A stretch of DNA of 64,000 bases from Asterochloris sp. CNOR1 (taxonomy: Eukaryota > Chlorophyta > Trebouxiophyceae > Trebouxiales > Trebouxiaceae): assembly GCA_963969365.1 (NCBI GenBank), contig OZ017753.1, forward strand, positions 1,798,001 to 1,862,000. The letters run 5' to 3'. Below, piece after piece: positions 378 to 64,000 of the stretch (position 1 is the stretch's first letter; every line of letters begins with the position of its first letter). The notes beneath the pieces were generated by a model. That model did no database searches. It was not told the DNA's origin and saw only the letters and a program-made list of their open reading frames with translations. A program made the translations under genes and the position numbers.

Positions 378-3300
378 TCAACAGTAATTGGTTCCCAGCC
401 TCACCATGAAAGTCCAATGCTTGCGCATGGCAACATAGCAGAACATGAGGGCCAGGGGGATGATGTTGAACAGCGTCCACACCAGACAGAGCGCCAGCGG
501 CTGAGATTGGTACCCGCCCTCAGAGCCCAGCTTAGCTGCAGCGCCAATGGCTGAGATGATAAGCAGCCCTAGCATGAGGCCAGGGGCCCACAGCTCGTCA
601 GCAATGTCTGCTGCCTGCACACAGGGTGTGCAGCGATCTGAGTCATCAATGGAACGGATGTTGTATTTGCAGCCATGTAGCCGAGGCACAGCAATGCGTG
701 TACCCAGCAGCACTCTTGCCGCCTGCACAGCCGCATGCAGCGCTGGGCATCATCTGCAAGAACCTGCTGTACGTGTCTCTGTGACCACCTGGCCCTGGAT
801 CAGCCAGGATTGTGGCCAGCAGCACTGCCACTGCCTGCACAGGGGCAAGCAGCGCTTGGGGTCATCACTGTAAGGGCGGCCGTCAAGTGGCATAGCTACT
901 GTATTCTGGGCAGCGGCCGCCATCCCTCATAGCTGCATAGTCCTGCACTGCAGTGTTACTCCTAGACTGACCTTGTCCCAAGACAGTCCCACAGCTCTCA
1001 GGAGCAACCCCAGCTCACCTCTAACACCCGGGTCTGGATGCCTGCCTTGGACTGGTCTGCTTTCTCACCCCCAGGCACCTTTGAGATCTTGAAAGCGTTG
1101 TACTTGGGCATGACCTGCATAGCACACAAGGGGCGCCTATTGTCTTCCTGGGCATGGACAGTTGGTAAGTGAGACACCTGGACATGACCTGCAGGCATGG
1201 CAGCTAAGCTGAGGCACTGAAGGTCCTTGGGCCCAAAGTTGAGCACGGCCTGCTATAACACTGGGTCACAACGGGGCATGGAGCGTAGGCAAGCTCCATC
1301 CAGGTAGAGCACCTGGCAACAAGGCAAGGCAGGACGAGCATGCACCCGGGTGCATGTTGTGCAACAATGGCTCTGGGTCCCAATCATCTGGTGGCAGGTC
1401 TGGCAGGTGCAGGAGTGGTGTGCAGGCCTGTCGCGAGCGTGTGTGCAGCCTGCACCCGCCTGGAAGCTCCCTGCTGACGCCCCGCCCCAAGAAAAGCAGG
1501 CATCATGCACCTTGCAGATCATCAAGCCTTGCCCTGGTGCAGTCGGGCACAGTCATGTGATCTGTCGTGCAAGCCCAGTCATGTATCAGCATGCTTGCCC
1601 TGCCAGCACCACCTCCCACAGTCTGCGTAAGCAATACCCACCACGCATGTGATGACTCAGCGTCTCCAAACAGCTAGCTTCACCATGCCCAGGACCACCT
1701 CTTTCAGTGTATTGCAGGCATGTCCCTCGCATCAGAGCTGCGCAGGCTGGCAAAGCAGGCCGCTCCACCTGGGCACACACTCATTCTGGTGCAGGGTCAG
1801 GCAATGCCTGCATGCCAGAGGCTCACCCTGCCTAGCACCACCTCTCCCAGGTTGCGCAGGTAGGTCCACCACATGAGGGAGCCATTCAGGCTGGCAAAGT
1901 AGGCTGCCTCCACGTGCACAATCCTCCGCACATTGTACAGAATCAGGTGCACGGCCAGCAGGTAGACTGAGATGGCCAGAGCCACCCACCTGCAGGGCAG
2001 GCAGGTGGGCAAGCATTGGACTGAGACTGCAAGAGGTATAGGTAACCCTGACTGCCCTTGGCCGAGGGCTCAGATGGCCAGGGCCACCCACTTGCAGGCA
2101 GGCAGACAGGCAGGCAGGCAAGGGGTGCGATCCGCTGCAGTGCTGGGAGCCGAAAGCCTGAGGCTCAGATGGTCAGGGCTGTCCAGAAGCAGGCGACCAT
2201 GCCGGGCTGCTTTAGTATCAAGCTCCACATGGGCCAGATCATCTGCAGGGCCAAGCATGGGCCAAACAGGGGGCCAAGCATCCCACTTCCATTCAAGTGC
2301 ACAACTCAGCGTACGTGAGGGGAATGCAGATGCAACAGGCAGCGTCTGTATGAACTGACTGCTGCAGACAGGTGAACACAAGATGCCCTGTGTTCACACA
2401 CCACAAAGGTGCAGCAGTGCTGCAGGTGGTCTCACCGGGTCAGCACCAGTGGGAAGTAGCCGCCCCAGATGGTGACCACAGGAACTAGCATCAGCACGGG
2501 GGTGCAGATGGCAGCAGTGATGAAGGCCCAGGCGTGCCCAACATACAGCAGGCGCTGGGGCATGGACAGAGCTCTGCGGAAGAAGGGGTTGCGGTGACTG
2601 AAGTACACTTGCAGCGCTCCCTGCACACACGCTTCCACAGCGATCAGGATGAGCATGTTGTTACTCAGCATCAGCTATGCTGTGGTTCTTTGGCTGCTTG
2701 TCACGACCTCCCTGCAGACATGAGCGGCTGCAAACGTTCCCAACTTCAGGGGCGTCAGTGCACAGACAGTTTGCAGAAATCGCAGCCCTGCACATGTGCC
2801 TGGCAAAGGTCTGCAGACTTGCTGATGACAGGCGGCAACCCAGCAGCCACGCATGGTGCAGATGCTCTGCTTAGCAGCACACCACCACGCCCTTGCATGG
2901 GCTGCATGGAGCTCTCAAGCCAAAAGGGGCCCCACAAGCTGCCAGCACACTGAGCTTACCTTGCTGCGGATGTTGTGGTCTGTAAAGACCGACTTTAGGT
3001 GGTGGGGGGCCTCCCCAGTGGTGAGGAAGTCCCGCAGGTAGCGTCCTTGCCACCCAGAGCACTTCAGCTCCATGCCCACGGCCCAGCTCTCCGCACAGCT
3101 GTAGGTGGGGAAGCCGTTTGTCTGCACAGGCACAAGCACAGACACAGGTGAGGGGTTGTGCCGTGTTGAGAGGGCCCAGGTCTCAGCTCCCAGCTTAATC
3201 AAGAAGTTGTGGGTCTGCAAACCACAGGCACAGGCAGGTGAGGCTGCTGTATAGAGATCAGAGTGGTCTGCACAGCACAGCCACATGCTAGCAATCCCCC

Positions 3301-15652: not shown

Positions 15653-24579
<8,927 letters not shown>

Positions 24580-24866: not shown

Positions 24867-27800
24867 ATGCTTCCCTCAGGTGCCAAGCTCCAGGGGACAC
24901 ATAGCCCAGCTGGCCTGGTGGGTCTCAGAAATTCTGGGCGGGTGTCCCAGAGAAGAAATCAGCGTCAACACTCCCTTTTGTGCAGAGCTGTTCTGGCGGT
25001 GCCTGCACCACCCAGGCAGCTGGAGCCGCCCCAGCAGCCATCAAAAGCACCGCAGCCACAGGTACCCCGTGCACGTCGCATACCAAAGTTGCTCCACAGC
25101 CGCTGCACCGCCACTGTCTTAACAGCCAGGGCACATAGCAGTCAGGTTGCCGATCTCAACGTGCAGCAACGGAGTTAATTACCACCCCATAGTGCTTGCT
25201 CCTGCGCATGTGGCTTACTGTGGCTGTATGCCCAGCAGGATGACTCAGAAGATGCCGCTCTGCAATGCAGGAGCCCCAGGAACTTGATCTGTCAGCCCCT
25301 CCACCGTTCACACTAGCAGACATTCGGAATGCTGTTCCCAAGCACTGTTGGGAGAAGGACACAGCACGTTCGGTATTCCACCTTGTGAAGGATGTGTCCA
25401 TCGTCCTTGGTCTGGCAGCAGGAGCAAGTGCTTTGGACCAGTGGTGAGGCACGCACACACTTCAAGCCTGGGCTGCTTTGGCCTGTAAAGGCTGTCAGGT
25501 GTCAGAATCTCCAGCTCCCTCAGGAGAGCAGGGGTTGCAGTGCTCAGTTTGCCTTTTCGTGGCCGCAGGTGGGCATGGCCAGCGTACTGGTTCGCACAGG
25601 GCACCATGTTCTGGGCTCTCTTTGTCATTGGGCATGACTGGTGAGTGCCTGCCAGGTGCATGCAGGGCCAGCCTGACTGAATAGTTTTGCCTCCAAATTG
25701 CTGCATGCATAGCGTGTGGCATGCACCCAGCCAAGCAATCCAATGTCACCATTTGTCTTGTGAGCGTCCAAAGTAACCAGCACCCCAGCACACAAGTGCC
25801 TTTGCTGACCTGCAGTGGCCATGGCAGCTTCAGCAACAACAAGACGCTGAACGATGTGGTGGGCAACATCACCCACTCCAGCATTCTGGTGCCCTACCAT
25901 GGTGAGAGTGGCTTGCCAGGCTTAAAATCAGCTTGAACACAAGCGGGACCTGGCGCTCAGCATCGAGCACGGTGCTCAGCATGAGCTCAGACACGAAGGA
26001 AGCTGGCGCACTGCCAGTTCCACTGAGCCTCCAGCCTGACTGGCCATGTGCAAGGGCGGCACACCCGCACATGCAGCTATCCTTCTGACCTGAAGCTGGC
26101 CGTCTGCAAGAGCTGGCACACCCTGGAGTCCCGGGGGGAGGGGGGGGGGGGGGGGGTGGTTGGGGGGGGGGAGGGGGAGCTGGCAGCTGCGGTCCCTTAC
26201 AAACCTGAGCCTGCCCCTACCCTGCATGCTGCAGGCTGGCGCATCAGCCACAGGACACATCATGCCAACCATGGCCATGTGGAGAATGATGAGTCCTGGT
26301 ACCCCACCAAGAAATCTCTGTTTGACAAAATGGTGAGGTACAAGCGCTGCTTTGTGAGGCACAGATGCTGCCCTTGTGCAAGAAAAACTGCACAGCTCTG
26401 CTAGCAGGCGGCTTACTGCCTGCTCAAGTGGCTTGTTGCATTGCTCATCAGCAGTAAAGACATAGCCCTCTTGAGAACGTGTTGCAAGTACATGTCTGCT
26501 GTGCTGCCCCGGTGGCTACATCAGACTGCACAGCGCTACAGGGTGGCCCTGACAGCTGATTGTGGGGCCCCCAGTGAGTTCCACACAAAATGCTTGGGCA
26601 GTCCTCTGGCATCCTGACTGGCATCTTGCCTGGTCCTGCAGGAGCTGCTTCAGAAGCTGGGCCGGCTGCTGTTTCCCCTGCCGCTGCTGGCTTACCCGTT
26701 CTACCTCATCGCCCGCAGCCCTGGCAAGACAGGGTCCCACTACGACCCCAAGTGCGACCTATTTACAGAAAATGAGGGCCCCCTGGTGAGGCTCCTGCTA
26801 GTGAGCCCTTACAGCAAGCAGCGAGGAGCTCTGTACCAAAGCAGGCAGAACAGAGCATCTTGCCTGAGCATGCAGATGGACGCATCCTGCACGCATGCTC
26901 AATCCTGGCATGTAGGGTGCAGAGGCCTGCAGCTGCACTGCAGAGATGGTACGTGCAGCCAGCACCAGCTGTGCTCGCATGTGGACGCCAGTTGCATGTG
27001 CGCCCCACCTGCTCAGCGGCTGCTGCAGACAAGCTCTGTTCTGGCCCATGGATGGGTGCCCTGAGGTGCCGCCAGGTGCAGACCAGCTCTGTACTGGGAG
27101 TGAAGGTGCATGTCCTGCCCCGTACAGATTGAGACCTCCAACCGCTATTTCCTGGGCGCAATGGCCGTGCTGGCAGCCTGCACCTTCGCCTTTGGCCCCC
27201 TGAAGATGTTCAACCTGTACTTCATGCCTTACTGGATCAATGTGATCTGGCTAGATGTGGTGACCTACCTACACCACCATGGCAGTGAAGACCCAGAGGA
27301 GAAACTGCCCTGGTACCGTGGCAAGGTGGGCATGGGCTGTTTGCTGGAGCACAGCTCTTAACACAGGGGGATTGCAGGTTGTTGTTCTGATGCTCTTTCA
27401 GCAGTCGACCCTGTTGTCAGCGAGTATCCACAGGGATGGTGCCCTGGCAGGGTAAGAGCTGGTTGCTGACCTGACAGCAGTGTGACAGGCCCAACATCCT
27501 TGAAGGGGTTCCTTGTGCTGTTAGAGCTCTGGACTAGCTTCAATTGGGCAGAGCAGAGGCCTGTCTGAAGGAGGTAGGGGCTGTCGTTGCTGCTGAGAAC
27601 TGGCTTGCAATGAGGTGGGGCGCAGCTGCTTGCTGTGTTGTCAGGCTTTAGATGTCGGGCCTGCAGTTGCCCCCTCTGCTGCCATTAGCTCGTGTTGCCG
27701 ATTGACCTCAGCTTGCATCCAGGCATATACATGCAGAATGAGCTTGCAGCCCAGGATCGCTCAAACGAGCCTGATCGTCAGTGCCACAGTCAGCAGCAAC

Positions 27801-29334: not shown

Positions 29335-32300
29335 ATGATGCATGTTTCGACCTGTGCTCGTAGAGTACATTCAAGGTTAGCTCTAGTTCATGTGCATCCT
29401 AATCAGCTCCTGGCTGATGCCGTGAGGACAGCTGGCACTTCTCTACGACATTCCTCCAGGCAGAGAGCTTGCAGCACTGCAAGTGCAGCAGAGGCTATTG
29501 TTGCATCAGAGCCCATGGAATGGAGTCACACAGAGCTTTGCACAGCACCAGGACTTGTGAGTAGTGCCTGCAGATGAGGAGGGTGCAGCTTTACCCTGCC
29601 TCAACTGTGCCTGGCTCACTTGCAGGTCATGAGCAAGCAGGCCAACTTTGTGTCAGTACGTGTGACGCCGCCTCCTGCACAATACAGCTCCAATGGATGC
29701 GAGGTAGGCCCAGCCCCTCCAAAGACCGTGGAGCTGTTGTGCGCGGTGCGTGCCCTCTTGAAGAAGATCAAGCAGCAAGTGCTGGTGGGCGACAGGGTCA
29801 ATGTGGTGGGGATTGACTGGGCTGACAAGAGAGGTGAGGCTGCTGCTTGTGGCTCTTGAGGTCTGTCTGGTCTTGTTCAGACACAGCCAGCCTGGTACTT
29901 CATCTTCATGCCCACCTTCTGAAGCCACGCCATTGTTTATGGCTGTCAGTGCCGTAGCATAGGTGCTGGAGGACCTCCTGCAATGGATGACCTTGCAAAG
30001 CATAGGTGCTGGAGGACCTCCTGCAATGGATGACCTTGCAAAGCTGCGGCCCCAGCAGCTCAGTAACAGTGCTCCCTGCTGCGCACTGCCCTCACGTCGT
30101 GGTGCAGGCGGTGCTGTGCGTCACAAACCCCTGTACTGCACTGCAGGCATGGTGCAGGATGTGCTACCCCGTCACAGCGAGATGGCTGACCCTTCCCTGG
30201 GCAACGTTGACCGCATCTTGCTTGTCTTTGCCTGTGCACTGCCCACCTTTGACACGCTACAGGTGGGTGCTGTGCGGCTCGCAATGTCTTTGACACCTTC
30301 AGGTGGCAGACGATCTGCTGTGGGTGCCTTGTCTGTTTGCTGCACACCTTTGACATGCTGCACACCCCCTGCATGCAGTTTCAAGCTGTGTGTAGCTCCC
30401 GGCGAGGTTGTAGATGTGCACCTTATTATGCTTGCGCACAAGCCGATTTTCGCAGAGCAGCTGCTCAGGTGGTCCTGGAGCTCAGAGTGCCCCGTCCTGC
30501 CGCTGCAGGCCACCAAATTTCTCGTCTCTGCTGAGGCCTCTGGCATCCCTGTCTCGCTCGTCCTGAACAAGGCAGACCTCGTCAGCAAGGAGGACCTTGA
30601 GAAGCTCATGAAAGAGGTGACCCTTCTGTGGCACGCCTTCTGCAGCCCACCCATCCTGCATGTCTAGCTGCGCTCACCAGATGACTGCCACCCAGGCATC
30701 CACCAAAACGAGCTTCGTGCAGTGAGGTCTTGTGTGCTACACATCTCAGTCTGCCTTCCCGGCCACCTTAGCTGTCACTGACGCATCAAAGCTCCTGATG
30801 CAGCCTTATCTGCGTCATGAAGCTACCTTCTGTATGCCGTGCATCTCACTGCCTTCCAGGCCACCTCCTAGGTCCTGGTATGTCCGCCACCCTCTGCAGT
30901 ACAAAGCTGGGGCCTCAACTTTGCTCCCGTGGGTGTCACACGAGCGACTGACCTGACATAGCAGGGCCCCCTTCCCACCCTATGCAGATCAAGGGCTGGG
31001 GCTACAACGTGACCCCTGTGAGCGTGGCATCTGGGGCTGGCCTGACTGAGCTGGCTGCTAGCTTCACGCAGCGCATCTCAGTGGTGGCAGGGCCGTCTGG
31101 GGTGGGCAAGTCTTCAATCATCAATGCTCTTCGCATCAGGTAAGTCCTGAGGGGCCATGCAGGTGTCCTGCTTTGGGGCATGAGCCTCTTACTTGCCTGC
31201 TTCCGGTATGCACACTTGATGCAGCAAGTGTATCTGGCTTGAGCAGTGCTAGGGTCTGCTATAAGGCAGCAGACCCTACAGGGCAGCAGACCCTAGCACT
31301 GCTCGTGCCAGATACACAGGCATCAAGCCCAAGCGTGCTGGTAACGGGTACTGTTGAGCCCCATGCCTGGTCATTTGCTGAAAAGAAGGGATGGTTGCGA
31401 TAAGAACCTGGAAGCGAGATGCTGCGCATGTATCTGCAGGGGAGCATGGCCCGCAGCACAGGCCAGCACCACCGCTCTCTCTCTGGGGCAATCTGAATGC
31501 CAGCAGTCTTTAATGGCTTGTGATGGCAGCGAGGAGGCAGCTCAGACAAGACGCCTGGCTGGCCTGGTTGCCCAGAGCGCTGCCTTGACCGCTGAGCTGG
31601 CTGAGCGCAGCCCCAGTGGCGCAGAGCCTGGGCCACAGAGCCTGCTCAGTGTGGCAGAGGGCAACGCAGCCCAGGAGCCATCAACCGAGGGGCCTCCAGC
31701 AGTCCTCCACCAGCAGCCTGGTAGTGCCACAGCAGCCAGCAGACAAACCCCACTGCAGCAGCAGGATAGCGGTGATCCAGATCAGTATTCTTTGCTGGAC
31801 CAGGAGGTGCGGCCGCAGAGCAGCGCCGAGCAGGTGCCACTGCAGCAGCAGGACAGTGGTGAGTCAGCCCGTAGCCTGTCTCAGGAGCAATATGACGACG
31901 GTGAGCAGGACGCGGGGAGGCGCAGGCGCTACAGTGCGTGGGACCAGGCCTCGATTGGGGCCCCCAGGCTGCTGCCTGAGATGGCACAGCAATTGCAGCT
32001 GCAGTCTGTGGGCAGCCTGACCAATATTGGGCGGGGCAGGAACACCACACGCCACATCTCCCTGATGCCTGTTGGCGGTGGCCTGCTGGCAGACACCCCT
32101 GGGTTCAACCAGCCAGCTCTGGGCAGCATCATGGCAGGCGAGCTTTGGCGCTACTTTCCCGAGATGGTCGAGCGGCTCGAGTCCCAGCGGTGGGTTCTGC
32201 TGTACCAAGCTGTTCTGGCTCAAGCACCTGCAACATTCCTGCGGCTGTGTCTGGCTGGCAGTGGGCCGTGGCGCTACATTGCTCTGTTGCCTGGGTGGTC

Positions 32301-34503: not shown

Positions 34504-35953
34504 ATGGCAGGCGAGCCCCATCTTTTGGCTCAGAACTCCTGGGCCTGGCATGCAATTGCTGACCAGCATCCGTCGCTGCAGGCCGAGGACGTCCACTTCA
34601 TGGAGAAGGCCCTTGCCCTGGCTGCCCAGGCCAAGGCCGCAGGCAAGGCAGCGCTTTCCCCCCTTGCACCTGTGCAGCTTTGCTCTGTTTGACTTGCTCC
34701 TGGCTGCAGGTGAGGTACCCGTGGGGGCGGTGATGGTGCATGAAGGGGCAGTCGTGGCGGAGGCGCGCAACCAGACAGAAGCGCAGGGGGACCCCACAGC
34801 CCATGCCGAGATGCTGTGCATCCAGCAGGTGCATGGGCATGCGTGTAAGACCGCCCTCAAAGTCGGACTGCAGGAAGCCAGAAAGGAGTGATGCAAAGCC
34901 TCTGGATGGTGGCCTGTTCTCTGTCAAGGCCACCAGATGGTGTGCTTTCCTCGGGATCAATGGCACAGGAGCAACGGCGCTGAAGCTGTGGCCTGTCGCC
35001 TATGGCAGTGCAGGCCTCTGGGGTGTGGTGGCAGATGCTGCCTCTTAGAGGAGGACTGCTCATAGCCACGGCAGAACCTGCAGCTGAGGATTGGCGCCTG
35101 CTGCCTCGCCCAGTCTCAAGAACGGTGACCCCTCGCAGTGCAGGCGGCTGCACAGCTGGGGCGGTGGCGCCTGCTGGAGACGACTCTGTACGTGACGCTG
35201 GAGCCATGCCCCATGTGTGCGGGCGCGCTGCTGCAGGCAAGAGTGGGGCATTTGGTGTACGCAGCCCGAAGCCCCCTCCTGGGTGAGGCCACAGCATGCA
35301 ATCATCATCCCTGATTGCAGTGACACTTGGGCTGAGCGTGCAGCCTGGAGGCTCTTGCTTGGTAGGCCTGCTCAGTTGGCCTTAAAGCCAATGCATGCAG
35401 TCATGACCCCTGTTGGTAGCCCCATTTGGGCAAGGTGTGCAGCCTGGAACTCCCTGCTGGGTGAGCCTGCTCAGCCTGCCTGGTTGCATCACGGGTCCCA
35501 TCACACTCATGGCAGATCTGGCGTGTCTTGTTTCAATGCCTTCTGCCGCTCGGGATGGCAAAGATGAGCAGCGGTACACTGAATGGCTGGCCTGAGCTGA
35601 TACCTCTCCTGGCATGTGCGGCTGCAGCACAAAGCTCTGCCCAGGGCGATGCAGCCAGTGAGTGTGTGCGCGCCCCATGCAGGTGCTGATGGCAGCTGGG
35701 TGAACATGCTGCAACACGGCAGGGCAGGTTCCACACAGAGCGCCGTGGCAGATCCCACGCGGCCCCATCCGTTCCACACAGATATCAAGGTGGGCTCTGC
35801 AGTCGTCCTTTGTGATGCTGGAGACACTGAGCCAAGCACTCTGCCTTGCAGGTGCAGCGAGGTGTCATGGAGGAACAGGCATCGGCAATGCTCCAACAAT
35901 TTTTCCGGCAGCGGCGCCTGCAGCCAAAAGATGCAGCCTGTGGCCTGCACTAA
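34504..35953 (+). CDS. TADA: tRNA adenosine deaminase, TadA/ADAT2-like
   Basis: Converts adenosine to inosine at the wobble position of a tRNA anticodon, probably in an organelle if an upstream transit exon exists. Exon 1 ends QAKAAG at 34642. The next exon (34710) reads EVPVGAVMVHEGAVVAEARN and DPTAHAEMLCIQQ, with the zinc-ligand His and catalytic Glu of HAE. A third exon gives LYVTLEPCPMCAGALLQARV with the two Cys ligands of PCPMC, ending SPLLG at 35282. The C-terminal exons read ADGSWVNMLQHGRAGS and QASAMLQQFFRQRR, a typical TadA end, with the stop at 35953. The first intron (34643-34709) appears to use a GC donor (GCAG/GCAAGG). The start is uncertain: frames upstream at 34270-34500 are basic and Ser-rich and may hold the real first exon. 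Confidence 0.87.
35255..35475 (+). repeat. Three tandem copies of a 5' splice junction in TadA
   Basis: The exon ends GCAGCCCGAAGCCCCCTCCTGG with its donor GT at 35283. Copies follow at GCAGCCTGGAGGCTCTTGCT (GT at 35362) and GCAGCCTGGAACTCCCTGCT (GT at 35461). Each is followed by AGGCC or AGCCTG. The spacing is 79 and 99 bp. Confidence 0.75.
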
Positions 35954-36291: not shown

Positions 36292-38428
36292 ATGCTTTGC
36301 AGACAGCCCCTGTGCAGGGCTGCAGGAGCATACACAACTGCAAGGACAGTGGGCAGGACCTCAGTCTTTGAGCTCTCTTTCCACATCAATCGCCTGGCGG
36401 AGTCCTGCCAGCTCATGCTACAGGCTGAGGCCGATGTGAGCCTGCACATGTGTACCTTTGCACTGCCCGCAATCTGTTTTCTGCATTGCTTGGCGGTCCG
36501 GCCGCCTGCTTACAGGCCGTCCCTTCCCTGCTGCAAAAGACAGAAGCTGTTGACAGCTCACGGCTGCTCAAACAGCACCAGTCCATCACAGAGGCAGCCC
36601 GCCTGCGGCCAGATGTGGTTGCCAGCCTTCACACAGCCGTGGATGCCTTCCTGGAGGCCCATCCACAGCACCAGGGCGAGTTGAAGCTCACTGTGCTCAT
36701 CACCTGGCGGGACAGGCAGGAAGTGCACACACATGTGGCTGCCCTGCCGCCTCGTCCACAGCCGCCTGTCAAAGCTCAGGTGCAACCTGTTGCCTGCCGT
36801 TATGGCGTGTGCAAAGCAGCTCCTGTGCAGCTGATATTGGCAGGAAAAGCCTGCTGTTGACCACAGCTGACAGATGCGCCTGAGGCTGCCTGCAACTAAG
36901 AGTGGCACTCTCAATTATTGTATCAGTTCTTGAAAGCAATCGAGTGTGCCTCTGGCTGGCTGCAGCTGACGGGGGCATTTTGCAGCCATCGTGCTGGTCC
37001 CAGACAGCAATTGGGGCTGCCCCTGTGGCTGCCTGCTGGTGGGGCCACTTGGCAGACTTTGTGCTGGCACCACACAGCAATTGAGGCTGCCCTATGGCTG
37101 CCTGCAGCTGAGGGGGGCACCCAGGAGCAATGCAGCTGCAAAAGACTCAAAGTGGGTGCAGCAACGCCAGGCCCTAGAGAAAGACAAGCCGACAGACGTC
37201 AATGAGGTGCACCCACCTGCCGCCAGTGCTGGGGAGTCTTGATTGCTTGGCTCTCCCAGCCACACAGCACTGCAGCAAGTGCTGCAATGCCTGCATGGTG
37301 ATGCAACTCGTTGCCTGGCAGCCTGCAATCAGCCGTGGGGATGCTGTCAGCCTCTGCTCGATAACGGACATGCGTGGTTGCTTATCTGAGGGTGTTGCAA
37401 GCTTTGCCTGACTGCAGTTGCTGCTGTGATGCCTGCTGGACTATGCTGCTGCACACCAGATGATCCATTTGAGAAAGCACCTGCTTCCACAACTATACAG
37501 CTTCATGGGAATGCTCCTTCAGGCTAGCAACGGACCTTGGTGCAGTCTCTCTGAGTGACCCCGCTGCAAATGCTGGGGTGCCTGCTTGCCTGCTTAGCAT
37601 TGCACTCTCCGCCTGCAGATCATCTTGGCTCAGGATGATGGAGCTGTGCTGGAGGGCATGAGCAGCAACTTCTTTGCAGTGCAAGACGGCACGCTGTACA
37701 CAGCTGGTGAAGGGGTATTGCTGGGCACCATCAGAGACCTGGCTATCAAGGTCAGTGCGCAGCATTTGGTATTATTCGCGTCATGTCAGAGTTCACCTGA
37801 GCCTGCACAGTCTTGCCCTGTACATGCTAAGTGCGCATAAGGCAGCTTGCATAAGCTGACAGCGAGCTGCTCTAATACTGCTGCATTTGCAGCACTTCAG
37901 CTTCAACCCACGCTCAGCATGCCACCCAGAAGCCCTCTCTCAACAGCTGCAGGGCTTGCTGATGCCCGCTGCATGTGCTCAGCTTGGACCTGCAAGTGGG
38001 CAAGCCACAGAAGCACCTCTGCTGTGCAGGTTGTGATGACACCCCCTGCTCATGACCATGAGGCAGCATATGCAGCAGTTCAGGAGCACCATTGCCATCA
38101 CACGCTGTATGCATGCTCTGCAGGTCAGGCAGCAGGAGGGCCTCCTGTAGATCTGCAGGCAAACATTGAGTGTTGAGTTCATGCCCTGCAGGTCTGCAAG
38201 CAGAAGGGCATTCCTGTCAAGCTGGAGGTACCAAGAGTGCAGAATGTTGAGCACTGGGAGGGGGCTGCTGTGGCCAGCACTTCACGGCTGTTTCTGCCCA
38301 TTGATGAGCTTTCAGCACCTCTTTTGAGCCAGCCGACCAGGTCTTTTCAAAACAGTGAGCACTCCCTGGTGAAGCAGATCGATGAGCTTGTGCAGGCTGA
38401 ACTTGAACATCACAGCGAACCTCTGTAA
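36292..38428 (+). CDS. Class-IV (branched-chain/D-amino-acid type) aminotransferase-like protein
   Basis: A fold-type IV PLP enzyme of the family that includes branched-chain aminotransferases and aminodeoxychorismate lyase. It is closest in pattern to plant D-amino-acid-aminotransferase-like proteins. The first exon reads AAGAYTTARTVGRTSVFELS and FHINRLAES. Others give LKLTVLITWRDRQEVHTHVA, then RSNAAAKDSKWVQQRQALEK (from 37108), IILAQDDGAVLEGMSSNFFA with YTAGEGVLLGTIRDLAIKV (37618-37750), and GIPVKLEVP with WEGAAVASTSRLFLPIDEL (38192 to the stop at 38428). The Lys of AAKDSKW and Glu of VLEGMSSNFF match conserved family positions. Substrate cannot be told from sequence. The start codon at 36292 is tentative. 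Confidence 0.83.
36950..37125 (+). repeat. Three tandem copies of a 3' splice junction, period about 71 bp
   Basis: The real exon starts at 37108 after GCTGCCTGCAG with CTGAGGGGGGCACCC. Copies start at about 36966 (GGCTGCAG then CTGACGGGGGCATTTTG) and 37038 (GCTGCCTG then CTGGTGGGGCCACTTGG). Between them GACAGCAATTGGGGCTGCCC and CACAGCAATTGAGGCTGCCC also repeat. Confidence 0.8.
38020..38205 (+). repeat. Copies of the last-exon acceptor of the aminotransferase
   Basis: The last exon begins at 38192 after GCCCTGCAG with GTCTGCAAGCAGAAGGGC. A copy begins at 38124 after GCTCTGCAG with GTCAGGCAGCAGGAGGGC (68 bp away). A weaker one follows TGTGCAG at about 38030. Confidence 0.6.
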
Positions 38429-38634: not shown

Positions 38635-41600
38635 CTACAGACTGCTGAGGCCAAGGTCATGCACATGCGAATCATACATATGTGCATCTGCAAACTGCAG
38701 CAGCGCATCAGGGCTGGTCAGCTCCTGGAGGGGTCCCTCAGCTCCCAGCATGGAAGTGTGAGTCATGCTGGCCACTGCAGCCGCAAGCATGGTGTCCCCT
38801 TGGTCCCTGCCTGGGGACCCTGGAGTGAGGCAGCAGGTGTCACTCAAAGTGGACGGGGTGTTGCCAATGCGCAGCTGCACTGCATCAGCCGGCACCATCA
38901 CCTGCAGGCACCAGAGGAACCTTATGAGGGCTGGCACGATTTACACAGCATGATTGGCAGTCACATGACCCCAGGCCTCGATGAGCCCTACGCCATGGGC
39001 AGAGTCCAAGGCAATGGCTGGTGTATACGGCATCTTGCAGCCCTGTCCCCATTCCTGTCCCCATTTTCTCCTGTGTATGACGGGGCAGCATGCAAGCCCA
39101 GGTGAGTCACTGGCATGCAGTCAGATCAGAGCTGCCCATGCAACACCCACCATGCACATAAGGTTTAGGATACAGACCCAGCCTAAGCCTGTGGCGGGGA
39201 CTCACCTCATCAGTGTTGCTGCCTGTGTTGGACAGGGTGTGGCTTATTCTTGAGCGGCTGCTCAGGGCGTTTCCTGTGGTGATGGCATTGGGCGGGGCCT
39301 GGCAAGTTCTCATGCACTCAAAGGGACTCTCGGGCACCATGCTGCTTGCGTTTGTCAGCACCGAGGGTGTCGCTGGCCTGCAGCATCATCAGATACACAC
39401 ATCAGACAGCTGGTCAATCATGCTCTGCAAAGAGTCCCCAGCATCAGGCTGCTTGCGTCAATCAGCGAGTGTGGCTGGCCTGCAGCAGACCGTTGCACTG
39501 CCTTCTGCGACTTGCGGTGTTGCGGCTGGCCTGCGCAGTGGTCAACAGCTTGCTGCCACATGGCTGCAGCATACCAGAAAAAGGTCTTGTCATCATGGCA
39601 GGGTCACATGCTGCACCAACTCAGCACAAGCTGGTAAGGGCAGGGACCCATCCAACATCTGCAAGCAAGATCCTGCAGTCCGGCAGTGACAGGTCTGTCA
39701 CAGGTGGAAACAAAGCATGCTGCTCATTCCCAAGCAGGCAAGCTGCCAGCAGCTCACCTGCAGTCCGGCAGGGCCAGGTCCATGGCGGGCAGGCGGTCTG
39801 CACCCGACCGCAAGGCACCCTGGGCGGCAACGTTTGCCGCAATCCCGCCGTCTCGGGGGTCGGTGCGACACCGCTTAAGCACGCGGGGCCCATGCACGGG
39901 GCGGTCATCATGCTCCCGCCCACTGCTGCCCCGGCTGCTGGTGGAGGGGACGGGCACGCTGACACATCTGTCCAGCGGCTTGCTGGGACCAGCACCCTGC
40001 AGGGGCAACAGGGATGGTCAGGCCGTGGCTGTGCCAGTCTCACAGCCACTCCACAGGCAATGGGGCCTCAAGTACATGGTCCCGGGAGAAGGCCGCCAGA
40101 CGGCTTGTGCTCTGCTGGCTGAAGATGTTGTCAGGAGGTGGGCAAGAGGTACACCCTCTAAGACCATCAAGCAATGGAAGCCATCCTGGTTAAGGCCACG
40201 TGGCTACCATGGGTACGGTGAGGAGGTGTGCAAGCAGGTTGGCATCTTTGCTCAACAGAGACAGGCTCCCACCTCAGGTTGTGCAGCCTTGGCAGCCAGC
40301 GCCAGCTTGGAGGCTGCCCGTGCGGGCCGCCTGCTGGTGGACCCAATGCCCTTCTCCCACTTAGGGTGCGCCCTGCAGACACAGGAGCAGCCATGTCGCT
40401 GACTGCATCTTCACACGTGGACTGGCACACTACAGACTCATAAGTGCTCTGTGAGAGGCTCACAAGGCAAGTGCAGACCAAGGCCCACAGCCACCTGTGC
40501 AGACCGGCACACTCACACTTACCTCATGGCGTCCAGTCAGTGTGGAAAATTGGCCAGTGGAACACTGGCCATTGTCAGTGGGAGGGCATGCCATCAATAC
40601 AGACAGCAATTTCCATAGGAAAGAGCCTTTCAGCTCACCTCATGGCGTCCAGCCAGTGCCAGGGCTTGCCTTCGCTGGAGCCATCCCACCCCATCTCTGC
40701 GCGCAGCTGGGCAAACAGCTCCTCGTCCACGCCAGTCTCAGGCGCTGCCAGGCTGCCCCTGAAGCCCGATGCCTCCTCTGAGGAAGGGTCCACCTGCGAG
40801 GGTTTGGGTAACAGCGTCGGAGTCTGAGGGCCAATGGAGGGCAGAGGGTCATGCACATCATGCTAGATAGAGGGAGAGGAAAAGCTGGGAAGGTAGAGTT
40901 GACGCTTGAGGGCCTCGTGCTCAGTGCAGCTGGTGTGATGCACAGCAAGCAGGACATCTGCGCTGCCTTGCAATGCCATGTGTCTGCTTACCTGGACTGC
41001 CCGGGCCTTGCTGCGCCGCTTTGCCTTGCCCTTGCTGCCTTTGCTAGCACCTTTGCTGCTGTCCCCTACTGCGCCCTGCAGCAAGACAGCAGGGGTGTTC
41101 TGCCTGAGCCCAGCAATCCCCTCGTAAGGATTGCTGCCCATGCCTCGTGCTGCTTGGGACGAGTGCTGATGGCCAGGAGCAATTGTCAGGCATGACAGAT
41201 GTGTTGGGTAGGGCAGTGAGCTAAGAGGTCTGCTTTGTAGCCACATGTAGTTGTGCACCCTCACAGGGATATGCGGAGCAGCTTGGGCGAGGCCAAACAG
41301 TGCGCTTGCAGCCCACAGGTGCTTCAGCGGCAAAAGGGGCAGACTGTGTTTACGCGGACCAAACTGCAAACGCCAGTGGCTGCGGTGCCACAGCCAGGCT
41401 GACCATTCACCTGCACGCCCAGCACTGTGCGGTCGATGGACACGCTCCCCGCGGAGCAGTTGCCCCTCTCCCAGAGGTGCAGCATGCTCAGCATGTAGCG
41501 CTTGAGGCAGGCGCGGTTCACGATGTCCCACAGCTGCTCGCGATCCCTGATTTCCTGCACACCGGAGAGGTGCAATGTTCAGGTCCAGAGAGCCTGTATA

Positions 41601-46400: not shown

Positions 46401-49199
46401 GCTGTTGCAGAAAACAACAGTCTGCACCAGCACACCACCTGTGAGCACCAGCCTCACAAGACTTGCTGTAAGCTGCAGTTCAAGGCAGATTTGGTGGTTG
46501 CCAGCCTTCAAGCATTGTCAGGCAAGAAGCAGGCAGCTAATGGTCGCTCACCTGTGTGAAGCTCACACAAGAAAACATGTCCAGCAGCGCCGCAGCCTTG
46601 GCAGCAAACAAAGCATGACTGGACGCCGCTTTGCCTGCAACCACATGCATCGAGGTGTTTTATCTTGTAGTCTTCCGCAGAATAGAAGATAATAGGCAGC
46701 ATAATCTGAGCACAGACGTCCCTGAGCGCACATATGAATATTTGGTGACAGGAAGCACCAGCAATGCCCTGCAGCCACACCTGCCTGCTTCTGCCCCCGT
46801 GAGTTGAGAACAAAGGTCACAGAATGCACATCTGCACAGGCCTGATGGCAGATCTGGCCTTGCACTGCAGCTGTACCTTCGTGCTGCCATCCCACCATGC
46901 AGTAGAACTGGCGCACCCCCAGCAGAGACACTGTCTCCTGCACATCTACCTCGACATGCAGGGGCTTGTGCATCAGCTGCTGCACTCGCAGCTTTGCTTC
47001 TGGGCTAAAGGTAGCTGATAGCGCCAGCACCTGAAGGGCAGGCAAGCTGGATGAGAGCTTGTGCACCGTGCACAGCAGAGTGCATCCCAGATGAGCAAGG
47101 GACCAAAGCTAGCAGTGCTGGTGATTGTGCTGTGGGTTGCAAGGCCCACGCTGCGCAGCCAGTAGGCCTCTCAACCCCCTGTGGGATGATCCATCCTGTG
47201 GGATGATAGGGCAGTTGGCACGCCACATGCACAGACCCCAAGACCGAGGAATGGCAGGGTGCTGCCCTCAGGCACCCTGCAGTTCTGCCCCCCTGAGTGC
47301 AGGATGTGCTGCGCACTCTTCATGGCAGGGAGATGGCAGCATGCTAGGCCAGACAGGTCCTTGGAATCTATACATCCATGTCTGCTTGCCAAACGCTTGC
47401 TGTGCATCCTGTTTGAAACTGCTGGAATTGTGACCCCTTGTCTAGCATGCGCACCTGCTTGCGGTGCGGCAGCACGCTGTGCACCCACTCAACATCCTCA
47501 GCAAAGCTATCAGACAGCAGGCTGTCAGCCTCATCCAGCACCAGGGTTGCGATGCGATCAGGCGGAAGCGCACCACTCTCCAGTAATGCGCACACGCGAC
47601 CAGGGGTGCCCACAGCCACCTGGCAAGCCCTGCAGGGCAGCACCAAGTTCTGAGATGCAGGCAGGGCAGCAGTGAGGCGGTGACAGCTGCCACAGGCTGC
47701 AGGCAGCGTCAGGTACGTCCTTGCAGCGGTGCCTACAGCCACCTGGCAGGCCCTGCAGGAGCTGCAGCAGGTCTGAGGTGACAGCAGGGCAGCTGGTAGT
47801 CTGGCGGCTGCCGTCAAGGGAAGTCATCAGGCGACAAATCCTTTCAGCAGAGCACATGCCTTTTTAGGGAGCCCGCAGCGACTTGGCAGGCCCTGCAGGG
47901 GCAGCAGCATGCCTGAGCTGACAGTTGAGCAGCACAAGTTTGTTGGCGCCTGCCCCTGTCAGCAGGACAGTTGTGAAAGGAGCCCCTGCAGGGGTCGCAC
48001 CTTGTCTCCGTGCTTTAAGTCGGACAGCAGGTGGCTTTGGACTGCAGTGTGAGGCCAGTACACTGCATCGACCCGTGTACAGCATCTCATGACATGATCC
48101 CGCTTGTGTGGCCTGTAGCACGACAGTGCAGCAGATGCACATTGGCAGCATGGGCAGCATGGAGACGCGGCAGGGCAGGATGTGGTGCAGGGTGCCCACA
48201 CCACCTTGCAGGCCCAGCATGAGCAGCAATAGGTCTGCAGTGACAGCGGGGCCAGGCATCACCAGCGCTCCTAGACCCAAACCAGCGGGACCATGTCTAA
48301 AGGCACTGCAGATGCAGACTAGCAGCCTAGGCAGCGTGAGCATGCAGCAGGGCAGGACAGGGCGCAGGTGGCCCACAGCCCCTCCTGCGCTGACTCGCAA
48401 TCAGCAGTGTTGAACATGCAGTGACCCAGCACAGACCTGCGCAGCAGCTTCCTGTCCTCCTCGGCAGGCAGACCGCCAATGAACACCCCCACTGAGAGGC
48501 CGGGGGCGGCCATGTGCGCTCCCACAGTGTTGATGACCTCAGCACTCTGAAGAGCGATCTCGCGGGTGGGGGCCAGGACCAGCACCTGCAAACACACACT
48601 TCAGCATTGCCTGCCATCCCAGGTAGCTTTGACAGGAGGCAGTTGACTGCATTTGGGCATGGAGACATGACCTGCTGTCAGCAGACAGCATTCAAGTGAG
48701 TCAGAACATGCGCACTCTGCGATGCTCAGGTGACAGCCAGATTGCTGCGCTTTGATGTGCAGGCAGTCTGCCTGAAGCAGGCAGTCACATGCAAGTGAGC
48801 ACATCTAAGACCATGGGCCTGGAGCCAATTGTGTAGCAGAATGAAGGCAGACAGCAGGGCAGGGACTAATCAGGCACGCAAAAAGCAGGGCCAGGGAGGA
48901 CAGGAGGGCAACAGAGCATGAGAAACCCATGCTGTGTGCCCCACCTGCGGCTGGGGGCTGGCCACAGAGACGCGCTCCAGCAACATGGTGCTGAAAGCCA
49001 CCGTCTTCCCGGTCCCACTCTTTGCCTGGACAATCAAATCAGACCCTGCCATTCCCAAAGGGATGCTGGCCTGTTGCACTGGGGAGGGCCGTCTCCACCC
49101 TGCTGCGTTCAATGCAGAGACCAAGTGATCTGGCACACCCAGTTCCTGGAAGGACTGAGCCTTGCCGGCCACATCCTCCGTCCTCTGCCGAGCTTGCAT
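43445..49199 (-). CDS. DDX20: DEAD-box RNA helicase, DDX20/Gemin3-like
   Basis: An ATP-dependent RNA helicase. In animals DDX20 is the Gemin3 subunit of the SMN complex that assembles spliceosomal snRNPs. The ATG at 49199 opens an exon with [13 protein letters not shown] (Q motif) and [18 protein letters not shown] (motif I). Next come [13 protein letters not shown] with [17 protein letters not shown] (about 48594-48440), [12 protein letters not shown] and [10 protein letters not shown] (from 47629), [13 protein letters not shown] with [11 protein letters not shown] (near 47030), [32 protein letters not shown] and [16 protein letters not shown] later exon has [18 protein letters not shown], matching the PLPDPIP segment after the helicase core of DDX20. 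The last exon ends with [13 protein letters not shown] before TVYYEQ, like the Trp/Tyr-rich end of DDX20. Three 23-residue units (AVxAHWEP...) lie between. The DDX20 assignment rests on remembered family features; the DEAD-box call itself is certain. Confidence 0.88.
47610..48225 (-). repeat. Tandem copies of the motif-Ib exon acceptor in the DDX20-like gene
   Basis: The real exon starts at 47629 after GCCCTGCAG and encodes [13 protein letters not shown] copy starts at 47752 after TCCTGCAG and reads [12 protein letters not shown] third starts at 47892 after CCCTGCAG (CTGCCAAGTCGCTGCGGGC). A weaker fourth lies near 48215. The blocks between them (GGTCTGAGGTGACAGC, GCCTGAGCTGACAG, GGTCTGCAGTGACAGC on the plus strand) repeat in step. 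Most of the roughly 800-bp intron seems built from such units. Confidence 0.8.
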
Positions 49200-52704: not shown

Positions 52705-55116
52705 TCACACATACTGGACAACAATGCGTTGCCCCTCAGGGAGCCCCGTCGCCACCCCAGCTTTAGTCCAAGCACTGCTCGAGCCTTCCTGCCGGAACTC
52801 CACATACTGCTTGGGGTTGACCCGCACCCTTACAACGAAGCTTGGGCAGCGGTGGGCACTCGCAGCCATGCACTTGATGTGCATGGCCAGCGCCTGGGCC
52901 AGGGATGCCCACCCAGGAGGCGGCTTGGCACCTGCACCATGCCAGGCAGACTTGGAAAGAAGTCATAGTACCGGCGTGCCAGTGGTTCTTGCTTGGGGCA
53001 GGAGGCCTGCTTTGCAGTGCAAGCACGAGACATGTGAGCCAAAGATGCAGTGGCTGGATCAGAGGCTTGCTGTGCAACAGTCTGCAGCGGCCAGATCTGG
53101 GGCCAACACTTCTACCTGGGGCTGTGTCTGCCTCATACAGGTGAACGTCGACCAGCCACAGACAGTACTCTGCCGGCCACCGCATGAATGAGTGCAGCCT
53201 GCACATGAGAGGCGCGGGCTGTCAGTAGTGTGCTCGCGTTGCATTCCAAACAGTGCACGGGCGCTGCATGGCATCTGGCAAGCACTGCGCCAGCCAAGCC
53301 TGACACCCACACACAGGCCGCCTTTGCCTGGCCAAATGCTTTACGCAGGCAGCGCTTGCCCCTTATGCCCATTCTCCACAGCATCGGCATGGACCACATT
53401 GAAAAAAGGAAAGCTGCCGCAGCAGAAATGCAACAGCCTCATTCCTGACAGCCTCATAGTGTGCAGCCTGCTTGTCATTAGGCTGCTTGGATGTCAGAGC
53501 CGGCTTCCCATGTCAAAGATCACTCCACACAAGTAGAGGTGAATCCCACAGTGAAGGCCTAAGGTGAAGTGCAGCAGCTGATGCAGCTTGCCTGTCAAAG
53601 CCGACTTTCCATAGCATGGGCATGGACCGCCTGCCATGGAAGGGCAGTAGCTGGCGTAGGACCTTGCCCAGGATAGCACCCTCACAGGCTGCAATGTTGA
53701 GCAGGAGGCTGGGCTTTGTCCAGCTCATGACTGTGCCCAGCTCAACCTCCTGGGCAGTCGCGCCATCTGCAGCATCAAAGTGGAAGTCTCAGCAGCAGAG
53801 TTCTGCAGCTCAGCATAGTAAGCCACAAGGCAAGAAGCTAAGCACGAGCTTTGCCTGTGAGGTTCTCTCAGGCCTGTAGGGGAATAATGCAGCTCAACCA
53901 AAGTGCGCCTATAGCATACGCAGAACACTGTTGGTGCGTCAGCAGCTCTCACCTGCAACCGTGGTGGGCCCTGTCCGCAGAGTGTGTGATCTTATGGTGA
54001 AGCCCCGCAGCTGCAGGCCAGGCTCCTGTGCACACAGCTGGCCCGTCATTTCCTCAATATTGGCCTTCTTCCTTGCATCCAGCATCCTCAGGAGCACCTG
54101 CAGACAGAGTAGTGTGGTCGCATCCGTAAAGTAGCCTTCAGGATGCAGTCACATTTACCTCCAGCCTGCAGTTCCGCAGAATGTGGTTCAGCCTGATGCA
54201 GGCTGATCCCAGCCCCATGGCTGCTCCCGGTTCAGCTACCAGCATGAGGTGGCTCAGCACGCCATCGGGGAGCTCCAGCAGAGGGAATCTTGCAGCCTCT
54301 TGCTCAAGTACTGGACTACAGACAGCAGAAAGCAGCTGAAAGGGCTCTTGGATGGCACAAAGCATGCAGAATGAGAGAGAAGAGTGAAGAACCCAAACCA
54401 TCTACATCTGTGCAGCTCTTGACAGGAGAAATATGGCAGGTTCTTACGTTGACTTCCCTCGTGAGGAGAGGAGCCAACTCAGTCTGAAACAGCAGGACAT
54501 ATCCCAACAGCTGTTATTATTAGGCCCAGAATTGTGTCAGCTCAACTTGCCTTCTTGGGAAGCACAGTGTTACTAATTAATTCCAAGCCGCAAAGGAGGA
54601 GGACCCCAACCTGACCAAAACAGGTGTTGTCTGTCAAGGCAGCACAGGTGTCAATTCATAGGCCTGACAGGTTTGCTCAGAGCAGTCAGTGGCAGATGAT
54701 GGCACAATGCATGCTCGGGGGTGCAAAAGCCAAAGCAGCAGTGTCAGACAGGTCCATGACAATCACAGGGGAATGGGCAGGCTGTCATAGAAATAGGGTG
54801 TGTGGGCAGGGCAAAAGGACCCCGTCTCTTCAAATTTGTCTGGGGCTTCGGAGGCATGAGCAGTGCTGAGCAGATAGAGCTTCAGACCTGTCGAATTGCA
54901 GCAGATCTGTGACGCACCCGGCCCCCATGCAACCAGGGAGGGGCAGTCGGTGGCAGCAGACCCCAGCGTCCATAAGAGTATAATGTGTACACCTGGACGA
55001 GCAGCCCCCGCCAAAACGAGGTTTTGAGCGTACTGAAACAGGCCATTCCTGGGGATGAGTGTTTGAAGACTTGCTTGCGTAGGTTCATTCAGCGTCCAGA
55101 GAGGCGCAGCCTTCAT
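52705..55116 (-). CDS. F-box domain protein, otherwise unrecognised
   Basis: Probably a substrate adaptor of an SCF ubiquitin ligase. The clearest part is the exon near 54160-54300 with FPLLELPDGVLSHLMLVAEP and CIRLNHILRNCRLE, an F-box pattern. Exons before it read GVLLLCGLELISNTVLPKK and TELAPLLTREVN. Exons after it read VLLRMLDARKKANIEEMTGQ, LQLRGFTIRSHTLRTGPTT and VELGTVMSWTKPSLLLNIAA with LPFHGRRSMPMLWK. The last exon gives SLAQALAMHIKCMAASAHR and VRVRVNPKQYVEF, ending QRIVVQYV and the TGA at 52705. The 5' end is uncertain: a frame from 55116 (MKAAPLWTLNEPTQASLQTL) is a candidate. One intron seems to use a GC donor (AAG/GCAAGT at 54550). No known C-terminal domain is recognised. Confidence 0.5.
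53375..53640 (-). repeat. Copies of a 5' splice junction in the F-box gene
   Basis: On the minus strand the exon end GCGGTCCATGCCCATGCTATGG (about 53615-53630) recurs as GTGGTCCATGCCGATGCTGTGG near 53380-53400. The intron start downstream (AAAGTCGGCTTTGACAGG) has a copy at about 53495-53515 (plus strand TGTCAGAGCCGGCTTCCCAT). Three partial units therefore lie in one intron. Confidence 0.55.
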
Positions 55117-62115: not shown

Positions 62116-64000
62116 ATGGCTCTCATCAGAGGCAAAACACTCCTGAGGATGCACGCCACCCTGAGCAGGTAATCTGAGCACTCTAACTGTGCAGGTCAAG
62201 CTTGGCTAAACTTGTGCACCTGAGCATGCAGGAGCTGCGCAGTGGGCCCCACGCAAAGCGGCAGGTCCTATAGCGGTGCCAGCTCCATTGAGGGTACCGG
62301 CGCTGAGAAGCCAGTGAGCATTGGGATCTCTTTACCAAGGCTGCACACTTGGCTCGTGCAGTGAATCAGCCTGGCGCACTGGCACCGGCAGCCCTGCCGG
62401 GATGCATTGCACACGTTCCGGCTGTCGCCTGTACAAATCTCTGCAGACCTGCGCCCTTGTTCTGCAGGCAATCAGTGCAGAGGAGATATTTGAAAGCCCT
62501 GAGGGCCAGACTTTCTACCGCCATGTCACACTCCTGGCAAGCTTGCTGCCTCATCATTGCACCCTCGCATCAGCAGTGCTGACCCGTCCCTTGTCCAAGG
62601 GGATCTGCAAACCTGGACGTGCAGCTTCTTCTCGCCCTGCTGTTCACATGTCAATCAGTGCAGCCATTATGTGACACCCAATCTGTGTCAAGCGCTCCCC
62701 TGTCTGCAGGCAGCTGCTCAGGAAGCTCTTGCCCGGAAGGCTTGTTGGCCCATGACACACCCCAAGAAGTTTGAAGCATGCATCGGGGGCCAGGCTAAGA
62801 TGAACCTCTATCAACACTACATCATGGAGGCCCAACACACCTCACTAAGGTCAGGCCTCAATATCTCTTAGAGGCAATCGTCACAGCAGATGCCCAGGGC
62901 CTGCAGACCTGGCGCTCTCTCCTGGAATGCTTGCACCCAAATGTGTGAGCACGCTGGTGCAATCTGCACTGGAAAAGACTTGCAGCACTTTTTCCACCAC
63001 AAAGCACTCCTGTAGGAGAAGGTGTGCAGCACTCTGTCAGCCTGCATGCTCAGGAGGCACCCAACCTGCTGGCTTCTTAGAAGCTGACCCTGTCATTGGT
63101 GTGCTGTCCTCTTGCAGGGAGTCACTTCAGCTCTGCACACACCCGACTGTCTCAAGGCCAATCCTGAGGTCCACATGCTGCCCTCATGCAGGTTGTCAGT
63201 TGAGCTCTGCATGCACCCAGACTGCTATCATTCTGAGGGCCCATCTTGACATTCATGTTGCTGTCCTCTTGTAGGGGTTCAATTGAGCACGGCCACAGAG
63301 CCATCGAGCAAGCTCTGCAGGAGCTGCAACAGGAGCTGCGGCAGGTGGGATGTTTGGCTGCCATTTGCACTCGGACTCAGCCACTAAAATTCTGGTGCTG
63401 CGGCACGCAAGCTGCACTGAGGCAGCAGCAGCCCCCTGTTCAGCTGTGCTACCGCTTTCAAGCTCATGAGAGCATCTCCTGAGTCTGACATTCATATCGC
63501 AGCCAGCAGCGCCTGGACAAGCGCTGTAGGGCAGACCATATAGCAGGCTTGCCTCCTGCATCACACTTTTGGCCGCATATTGTAGCAGTCTCTGCATCTT
63601 TGAGGCTTTGGCTTGGCTACCTGCAAGCAGCAGGCAAGGTGCTCCCCCTGATGTGCTGCACCTTGTCTGCCGCAGGTGCTGAAAGGGCCCTCGTCTGGCA
63701 AGGATGACCTGTTAGCCCTGCAGAGCGAGCTGGTGGCGGCCGAGTACCAGCTGGCGCAGACCCAGGCAGCGCTGGCTGATGCATGCAGACGCCAGGCTGA
63801 CACTGAGCGCCAACAGGTGCGGGGCTAGGAAGATTGGTTGGCTGGCAGGGATGTGGAGTGGCTAGGCACCAGCATCTGAGCATGGAATTTGCCTCATGGC
63901 CATGCTGCCATGTTCCTATTCCTGTCACCTGTGCTGCTCTGACACTGTACAACTTGGGCCCCCGCCAGCCTGCATGAGAAGCAGGCTGCCACCCATCCAC
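62116..64000 (+). CDS. Coiled-coil protein of unknown function, partial (runs off the right edge)
   Basis: Not recognised. Four exons join with matching phase: AISAEEIFESPEGQTFYRH (from 62470), AAAQEALARKACWPMTHPKK with IGGQAKMNLYQHYIMEAQHT (62711-62849), [20 protein letters not shown] (63275-63344), and KDDLLALQSELVAAEYQLAQ with TQAALADACRRQADTERQQ (63677-63816). The last two predict a long coiled coil. A possible first exon at 62116-62168 (MALIRGKTLLRMHATLS) or an overlapping frame (SSYREVAVTRHDGSHQRQ) ends at a GTAATC donor; the true start is not settled. The gene is divergent with the DUF819 gene, and the 3' part lies beyond the window. Confidence 0.5.
63105..63290 (+). repeat. Three tandem copies of a 3' splice junction in the coiled-coil gene
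   Basis: The used acceptor CCTCTTGTAG ends at 63274 and precedes GGGTTCAATTGAGCACGGCC. Copies end at 63117 (CCTCTTGCAG, then GGAGTCACTTCAGCTCTGCA) and 63191 (CCTCATGCAG, then GTTGTCAGTTGAGCTCTGCA). The spacing is 74 and 83 bp. The whole unit repeats, including CCACATGCTG and TTCATGTTGCTG before the acceptor. Confidence 0.85.

Follow-up and report, generated by a model that had tools for sequence, protein, structure and literature searches.

Decayed local copies of splice junctions in introns of Asterochloris sp. CNOR1 and their probable origin in duplications filtered by splicing

Introduction

Why do introns in one stretch of the genome of the green alga Asterochloris sp. CNOR1 contain what look like worn copies of their own exon boundaries? 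The stretch, hereafter the window, is the 64,000 nt at positions 1798001-1862000 of contig C8 (OZ017753.1), in an assembly of 56,383,464 bases and 21 contigs. An earlier note, made from the letters of the window alone, had listed nine loci at which an intron carries copies of the adjacent donor or acceptor together with some exon. We refer to such copies as echoes. Tandem duplication is an accepted route of intron gain, and its traces are considered rare. Here, we report that about one in eight of the introns tested has an echo of an exon edge, and that the echoes are probably the product of frequent, untargeted, tandem duplication in direct orientation, filtered by splicing.

Materials and Methods

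The window and 200 kb of flanking DNA, 264 kb in all, were analysed, and 40 kb from four further contigs (C1, C3, C12 and C16) served as a held-out set; together these represent ~0.5% of the genome. Gene models were predicted from sequence alone with a self-trained hidden Markov model. The final version, with an exon minimum of 15 nt, comprises 49 genes with 579 introns (median intron 238 nt) and contains two internal stops; earlier models carried 49 zero-length exons among 687. Counts of edges, classes and codon positions are from the corrected models, and the flank comparisons and the first simulation comparison are from the earlier models, which allowed zero-length exons. The predicted genes have protein matches to a cytidine/deoxycytidylate-type deaminase, a class IV aminotransferase, an RsgA GTPase, DUF819, RNA recognition motifs, a DEAD-box helicase and a CTR1-like kinase. 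Hence, the gene models find real genes.

Local direct repeats with offsets of 20-450 bp were chained and catalogued at a score of at least 18; gene models played no part in this step. In the exon-edge test, each exon edge was compared with its own intron (Smith-Waterman score of at least 14), the expectation being taken from unrelated introns of equal length. The reverse complement, and exon sequence 40-80 nt away from the junction, were used as controls. Expected numbers of pairs in each class were obtained by shifting the annotation 500 times. For the simulations, tandem duplications were placed regardless of junctions and their intronic parts decayed neutrally, under two indel settings.

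Results

The 264 kb contain 176 local direct pairs, 38 of them wholly within the window, compared to 4 and 2 in two far-offset control bands. The commonest spacing is 80-120 bp, and 62/176 pairs have an offset of 80-119 bp. A count that uses no gene models gives the same picture: for each offset between 80 and 120 bp there are ~8 matches of 17/20 per Mb, whereas the figure at 5-50 kb is 0.18. Within the window there are 52 ungapped direct segments with a score of at least 16, compared to 3 at far offset and 1 inverted. Inverted copies are at chance, both among the ungapped segments and in the reverse-complement edge tests, a single hairpin in the window being the exception. The excess recurs on other contigs: the held-out 40 kb has 0, 3, 11 and 14 pairs in C1, C3, C12 and C16, respectively, a sum of 28, compared to 3 and 0 in controls, with a wide spread between loci. 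The far-offset comparison, which covers two bands (4 and 2 pairs), is also relevant to introners, dispersed intron-making elements that would give many near-identical introns across a genome.

The pairs are short and seldom adjacent. Their cores have a median length of 48.5 bp and sharp edges, and the copies are separated by less than 25 bp, i.e. near head-to-tail, in 43/176 pairs. Nine class-independent head-to-tail cases are visible among the 176 pairs, as Tandem Repeats Finder (TRF) arrays or as near-adjacent pairs. Most echoes consist of two or three decayed copies. Ordinary minisatellite arrays are not the pattern, since TRF reports six rows in the window, of which 36935-37120 is at an echo locus.

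Exon edges match their own introns far more often than they match unrelated introns. On the donor side, 40/550 edges have a match in their own intron (2.77 expected), and on the acceptor side 34/555 (2.12 expected). The reverse complement gives 3/550 for donors (2.43 expected) and 0/555 for acceptors (2.45 expected). For exon sequence lying 40-80 nt away from the junction, the counts are 8/433 on the donor side (1.68 expected) and 8/438 on the acceptor side (2.15 expected). At least one edge echo is present in 67/565 introns (~12%); in the window, which has 141 introns, the figure is 17 of the 135 that are testable. In the held-out set, 8/70 donor edges (0.58 expected) and 3/71 acceptor edges (0.12 expected) have echoes, and the reverse complement gives 0 and 0. 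The controls share the base composition of the introns, which argues against common TGCAG-like composition, a concern raised in the earlier note, as the source of the similarity. Copies of an exon edge with its intron edge are therefore present within the adjacent intron, in direct orientation and in any frame, and the existence of echoes, as claimed in that note, is confirmed.

It is clear from the catalogue that junctions are favoured, yet far from the sole site of local pairs. Of 579 introns, 119 touch a catalogued pair (control, 2). Junction-intron pairs make up 55/176, compared to 31.0 +- 5.3 expected, and 0 of 500 annotation shifts reach 55. Exon-exon pairs (26, 18.4 expected) and junction-junction pairs (14, 8.1 expected) exceed expectation; intron-intron pairs (34, 48.8 expected) and exon-intron pairs (30, 36.7 expected) are below it, and the remaining pairs are 4 intergenic and 2 other. 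The copies do not, as had been proposed, always abut junctions, given the intron-intron, exon-exon and intergenic pairs. Junction-exon pairs are also below expectation (11, 17.4 expected), which argues against the suggestion that splice sites shift by this route. For pairs that map a junction into its own intron, there are 22 donors and 29 acceptors, all in direct orientation and with the frame free. Exon copies tend to reach the edge: the exon continues on one side only in 61/70 and on both sides in 7/70, compared to 37% on both sides for random placement.

The intronic copies show no sign of coding. Differences between exon and intron copies are spread evenly over the three codon positions (239/1222, 243/1229 and 283/1222; 0.196, 0.198 and 0.232), which indicates that coding does not constrain the echo and that the intronic copy decays freely. 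From exon to intron, C>T changes outnumber T>C changes 129 to 63. Frame is respected only within exons. The offset is a multiple of three in 18/26 exon-exon pairs, and 25/26 pair the same codon position; junction-intron pairs (18/55 in frame) and exon-intron pairs (6/30 in frame) are indifferent to it. Frame kept within exons but ignored across junctions is the signature of filtering by splicing. The flat codon pattern and the 6/30 in-frame exon-intron offsets do not match the pattern of tandem exon duplication and mutually exclusive exons.

What becomes of the copied splice sites? The earlier note had stated that copies keep AG or GT more often than frame. We found no preferential retention: GT is kept in 12/22 and AG in 22/29, compared to ~0.64 expected at 20% divergence (P = 0.24 and 0.13), i.e. 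neutral decay. Among echoes that keep the dinucleotide, however, 11/12 GT and 15/22 AG sites equal or exceed the 10th-percentile score of the real sites in the models, a level reached by 15.9% and 7.7%, respectively, of background intronic sites. By predicted site score, these data support the proposal that retained echoes are a pool of strong cryptic splice sites. Their high scores are explained by their having been copied from a real splice site.

Each of the nine loci listed in the earlier note has at least one catalogued pair, although not every link drawn there survives. The links 614-834 and 35362-35461 were recovered, as was a copy 101 bp from 30263; those joining 614 to 722, 35283 to 35362 and 30263 to 30303 fall below threshold. 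Five introns at these loci pass the edge test (608-788, 40373-40638, and those at 21057, 30263 and 63169). The other four loci do not, which is partly due to modelled junctions that coincide with the echoes.

Homologue alignments support the working junction at three of these loci. In the DEAD-box helicase gene (minus strand), the alignment to DDX20 (2oxc) runs without a break from the sequence preceding the intron into an 11-residue stretch at 47629, which leaves no need for the two copies farther upstream, at 47752 and 47892. The alignment marks 47601-47645 as the working acceptor junction and the likely source. One echo, at 47866-47954, copies the exon start that follows acceptor 47629, and a second is at 47724-47793 (paired with 47601-47670, offset 123). 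The catalogue also pairs 47604-47645 with 47867-47909 (offset 263) and 47728-47812 with 47868-47954 (offset 140). The small exons modelled at the two copies, in the region 47753-47892, are probably false. In the class IV aminotransferase gene (plus strand), which also matches Aminotran_4, transaminases align ungapped across acceptor 38192, supporting 38180-38228 as the working junction, with the exon starting at 38192 (VCKQKGIPVK). Its echo, at 38112-38159 (offset 68), has its AG at 38123; read as an exon from 38124 it would encode VRQQEGLL and then a stop. In the protein kinase gene (plus strand), a donor-side exon echo at 21125-21153 is paired with 21023-21051 (offset 102). From the alignment to CTR1 kinase, the donor at 21056 appears to be real, with 21023-21056 as the source exon edge and the intron starting at 21057, and the next ~22 modelled residues appear to be spurious.

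The other listed loci vary in form. A donor echo with GTAAGT at 40518-40542 (minus strand) lies 116 bp inside the intron 40373-40638 and is 92% identical to its source junction, 40634-40658. In the RsgA-like GTPase gene (plus strand), a donor-side exon echo at 30329-30362 is paired with 30228-30261 (offset 101), and another copy is visible near 30303. Three acceptor copies stand together on the plus strand: 63102-63144, which pairs with 63176-63218 (offset 74) and 63259-63293 (offset 157); 63176-63218 itself; and 63232-63293, with an acceptor-like TTGTAG at 63274, which pairs with 63150-63210 (offset 82). A near head-to-tail array with a period of ~70-71 bp occupies 36932-37113 (plus strand; TRF 36935-37120; pair offset 71) up to the acceptor at 37107/37108, and the pair at 37108 is almost entirely inside the intron, with only a few bases reaching the exon. 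An intron of the deaminase gene (plus strand) has a near head-to-tail pair at 35288-35481 (35288-35382 and 35387-35481, offset 99), which extends to the modelled donor 35461. On the minus strand, acceptor-type copies at 611-876 involve the neighbouring predicted introns 608-788 and 835-1018 (611-657 with 831-876, offset 220; 662-754 with 774-866, offset 112). Two further loci on the minus strand have donor echoes. By pair score, an exon edge at 39659-39780, a locus absent from the earlier list, has been copied 84 bp into the intron and the GT lost. The other echo, at 53354-53628, has an offset of 232 and belongs to the intron 53199-53605.

Discussion

The direct orientation and short spacing of the copies point to tandem duplication. 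We consider it probable that small direct-orientation duplications, mostly 80-120 bp apart, are frequent, are not targeted, and would hit exons, introns and intergenic DNA alike. Where a tandem duplication spans a donor, the first copy would stay in use and the second would become intronic; for an acceptor, the last copy would stay in use and the first become intronic. In either case the mRNA would be unchanged and the intron longer, such that size and frame would be irrelevant. Within exons, mainly frame-keeping duplications would persist. The intronic copy would then accumulate substitutions and indels neutrally, whereas selection on the protein would preserve the exonic one. The exon-derived part of a duplicate would remain recognisable longest, and so would appear to hug the junction. 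In this scheme, the excess of pairs, their direct orientation, the filter on frame, the neutral pattern over codon positions and the recurrence on other contigs are observed, and we infer a head-to-tail origin, a copy that goes unspliced and an order of events. The excess of pairs at junctions is explicable without targeting, by opportunity together with the fact that the half anchored in the exon decays more slowly. Indeed, simulated untargeted tandem duplications give ratios of exon-intron to intron-intron pairs of 1.88 and 2.97, compared to 1.89 observed. The edge tests and the excess of local pairs support the suggestion of the earlier note that introns lengthen by recurrent local duplication.

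Several observations weigh against tandem duplication filtered by splicing. Most pairs (133/176) are not head-to-tail, having at least 25 bp between the copies, and the short cores require many simulated indels, with settings that were picked after comparison with the data. Head-to-tail exon-intron pairs are commoner in the simulation (0.23 and 0.13) than in the data (0.08), and head-to-tail intron-intron pairs are rarer (0.17 and 0.22, compared to 0.39 observed). Simulated exon-side flank scores are 4.3 and 4.8, compared to 3.7 observed, and the flanks of junction-intron pairs are near random. Third-position divergence is barely above that at the other positions, indicating that the exon branch changed less than the free synonymous rate suggests. 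Lastly, one of the four held-out loci has no pair at all.

Could the copies instead have been short from the start? The main rival is non-tandem copying of ~30-60 bp, in direct orientation, to a position ~100 bp away, e.g. by polymerase switching on one strand, with only intronic landings persisting. The short, sharp-edged cores and the distance between most copies are as this would predict. A short-copy simulation fits core length (48 and 43) and the head-to-tail fraction (0.06, compared to the observed 0.08) better than a tandem simulation does, and the exon-anchored flanks at 116489-116518 (flank coordinates) and 124981-125012 lack similarity. Its class ratio, 1.51 and 1.82, is also near that observed; hence, class ratio does not separate the two models. 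Core position does. Short copying predicts that 31% of exon copies are interior, with exon on both sides, and we observed 7/72 (P = 1.8e-5), i.e. 0.10, compared to 0.15 and 0.21 in the tandem simulation. It also predicts no similarity in intron-side flanks (3.5, compared to 4.6 observed) and a head-to-tail fraction of 0.11 among intron-intron pairs, compared to the observed 0.39. Templated insertion by end joining is expected to yield both direct and inverted local copies, and inverted copies are at chance. We therefore regard short copying as unlikely. A version in which the copying is itself biased to junctions, by mutation (e.g. through coupling to transcription or splicing) and not just through differential survival, would place direct exon-edge copies of 30-60 bp in the adjacent intron at a spacing of ~100 bp, building introns out of their own boundaries and supplying alternative splice sites; we consider this a rather doubtful proposition. 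A dependence on junctions more generally, with echoes acting as functional decoy or alternative splice sites or with duplication directed to junctions, is consistent with the excess of junction-intron pairs, the strength of the surviving sites, and the rarity of interior exon copies relative to the tandem simulation. However, GT and AG are kept at the neutral level, divergence is uniform across codon positions, the class ratio can be obtained without targeting, numerous pairs are not at junctions, and the high scores of kept sites follow from copying a real site. This makes such a dependence quite improbable.

It might also be argued that the “introns” include missed exons, or that the matches are chance similarities between CTGCAG-rich sequences. 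The self-trained models do place false small exons at echoes (in the region 47753-47892 and at 21443). Nevertheless, no gene models entered into the repeat catalogue, the unrelated-intron, reverse-complement and far-offset controls have the same composition, and the frames of echoes are broken and their codon pattern flat. An artefact is thus very unlikely. We give least credence to intron creation by tandem duplication of an AGGT-bearing exon segment, the model to which the earlier note had appealed, in which intron length equals repeat spacing. Five introns in the first models seemingly had this property, but those models included the zero-length exons, and four of the five candidates vanished under the 15-nt minimum. 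One doubtful case is left in 579 introns, at 1990-2091, where the upstream “exon” resembles an acceptor tract.

The portions of a review that cover intron gain by tandem duplication (PMC3443670) describe, in the AGGT model, an in-gene duplication that is neutralised by splicing, with splice-like sites duplicated along with it. This resembles our proposal; the difference is that the AGGT model creates a new intron out of an AGGT within an exon, whereas here existing introns grow and we found no clean new intron. In the potato RdRp gene, according to the part of the report dealing with this event (PMC4974935, 2016), one dated tandem duplication across an intron-exon boundary added an intron through a cryptic donor. 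There too the duplicate crosses a boundary and formerly exonic sequence becomes intronic, but that is a single, dated, new intron, whereas our cases are numerous, undated and drawn from a small sample, and most of them lengthen an intron. Both papers, in the sections concerned, cite Gao and Lynch (2009) for internal gene duplications being common in eukaryotes and linked to introns. Mutually exclusive exons, in the portions of PMC6071210 that treat tandem exon duplication, likewise arise by local duplication that includes introns and splice sites; they are whole, functional and in frame, whereas an echo is a partial, neutral copy that does not keep the frame. In a limited search of the open-licence literature, we found no account of introns that commonly bear decayed copies of junctions.

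What is the significance of the echoes? With ~12% of introns bearing them in this small sample, lengthening of introns by duplication would become measurable within one genome. Splicing exposes which duplications persist: those across junctions can be of any size, and those inside exons are multiples of three. If tandem duplication filtered by splicing is correct, introns both tolerate and record DNA duplication. There is also a practical consequence. The gene predictor puts small or false exons beside echoes (47753-47892 and around 21443), and automated annotation of genomes with such echoes likely contains spurious exons.

Splice signals across the 264 kb are themselves unusual. The acceptor consensus CTGCAG/G (the slash marks the junction) is unusually strong, and the donor consensus is CAG/GTGAGC. 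As a result, AG/GT sites often score as both donor and acceptor, giving the 49 zero-length exons in the unconstrained models. A few other repeats deserve mention. The freshest duplication that we observed is an intronic, perfect 43-bp tandem duplication (2.1 copies) at 29956-30044, whose unit holds both AGGT and ACCT. In the 3' flank, at 68869-69044 in window coordinates, there is an in-frame, mostly exonic 87-bp tandem duplication (87% matching) in a coiled-coil gene that starts at 62149. The only strong local inverted repeat in the window, in a predicted intron, has 33-base arms (31228-31260 and 31285-31317) and a 24-base loop. Finally, a G-rich (81%) tract of 45 bases is found at 26133-26177.

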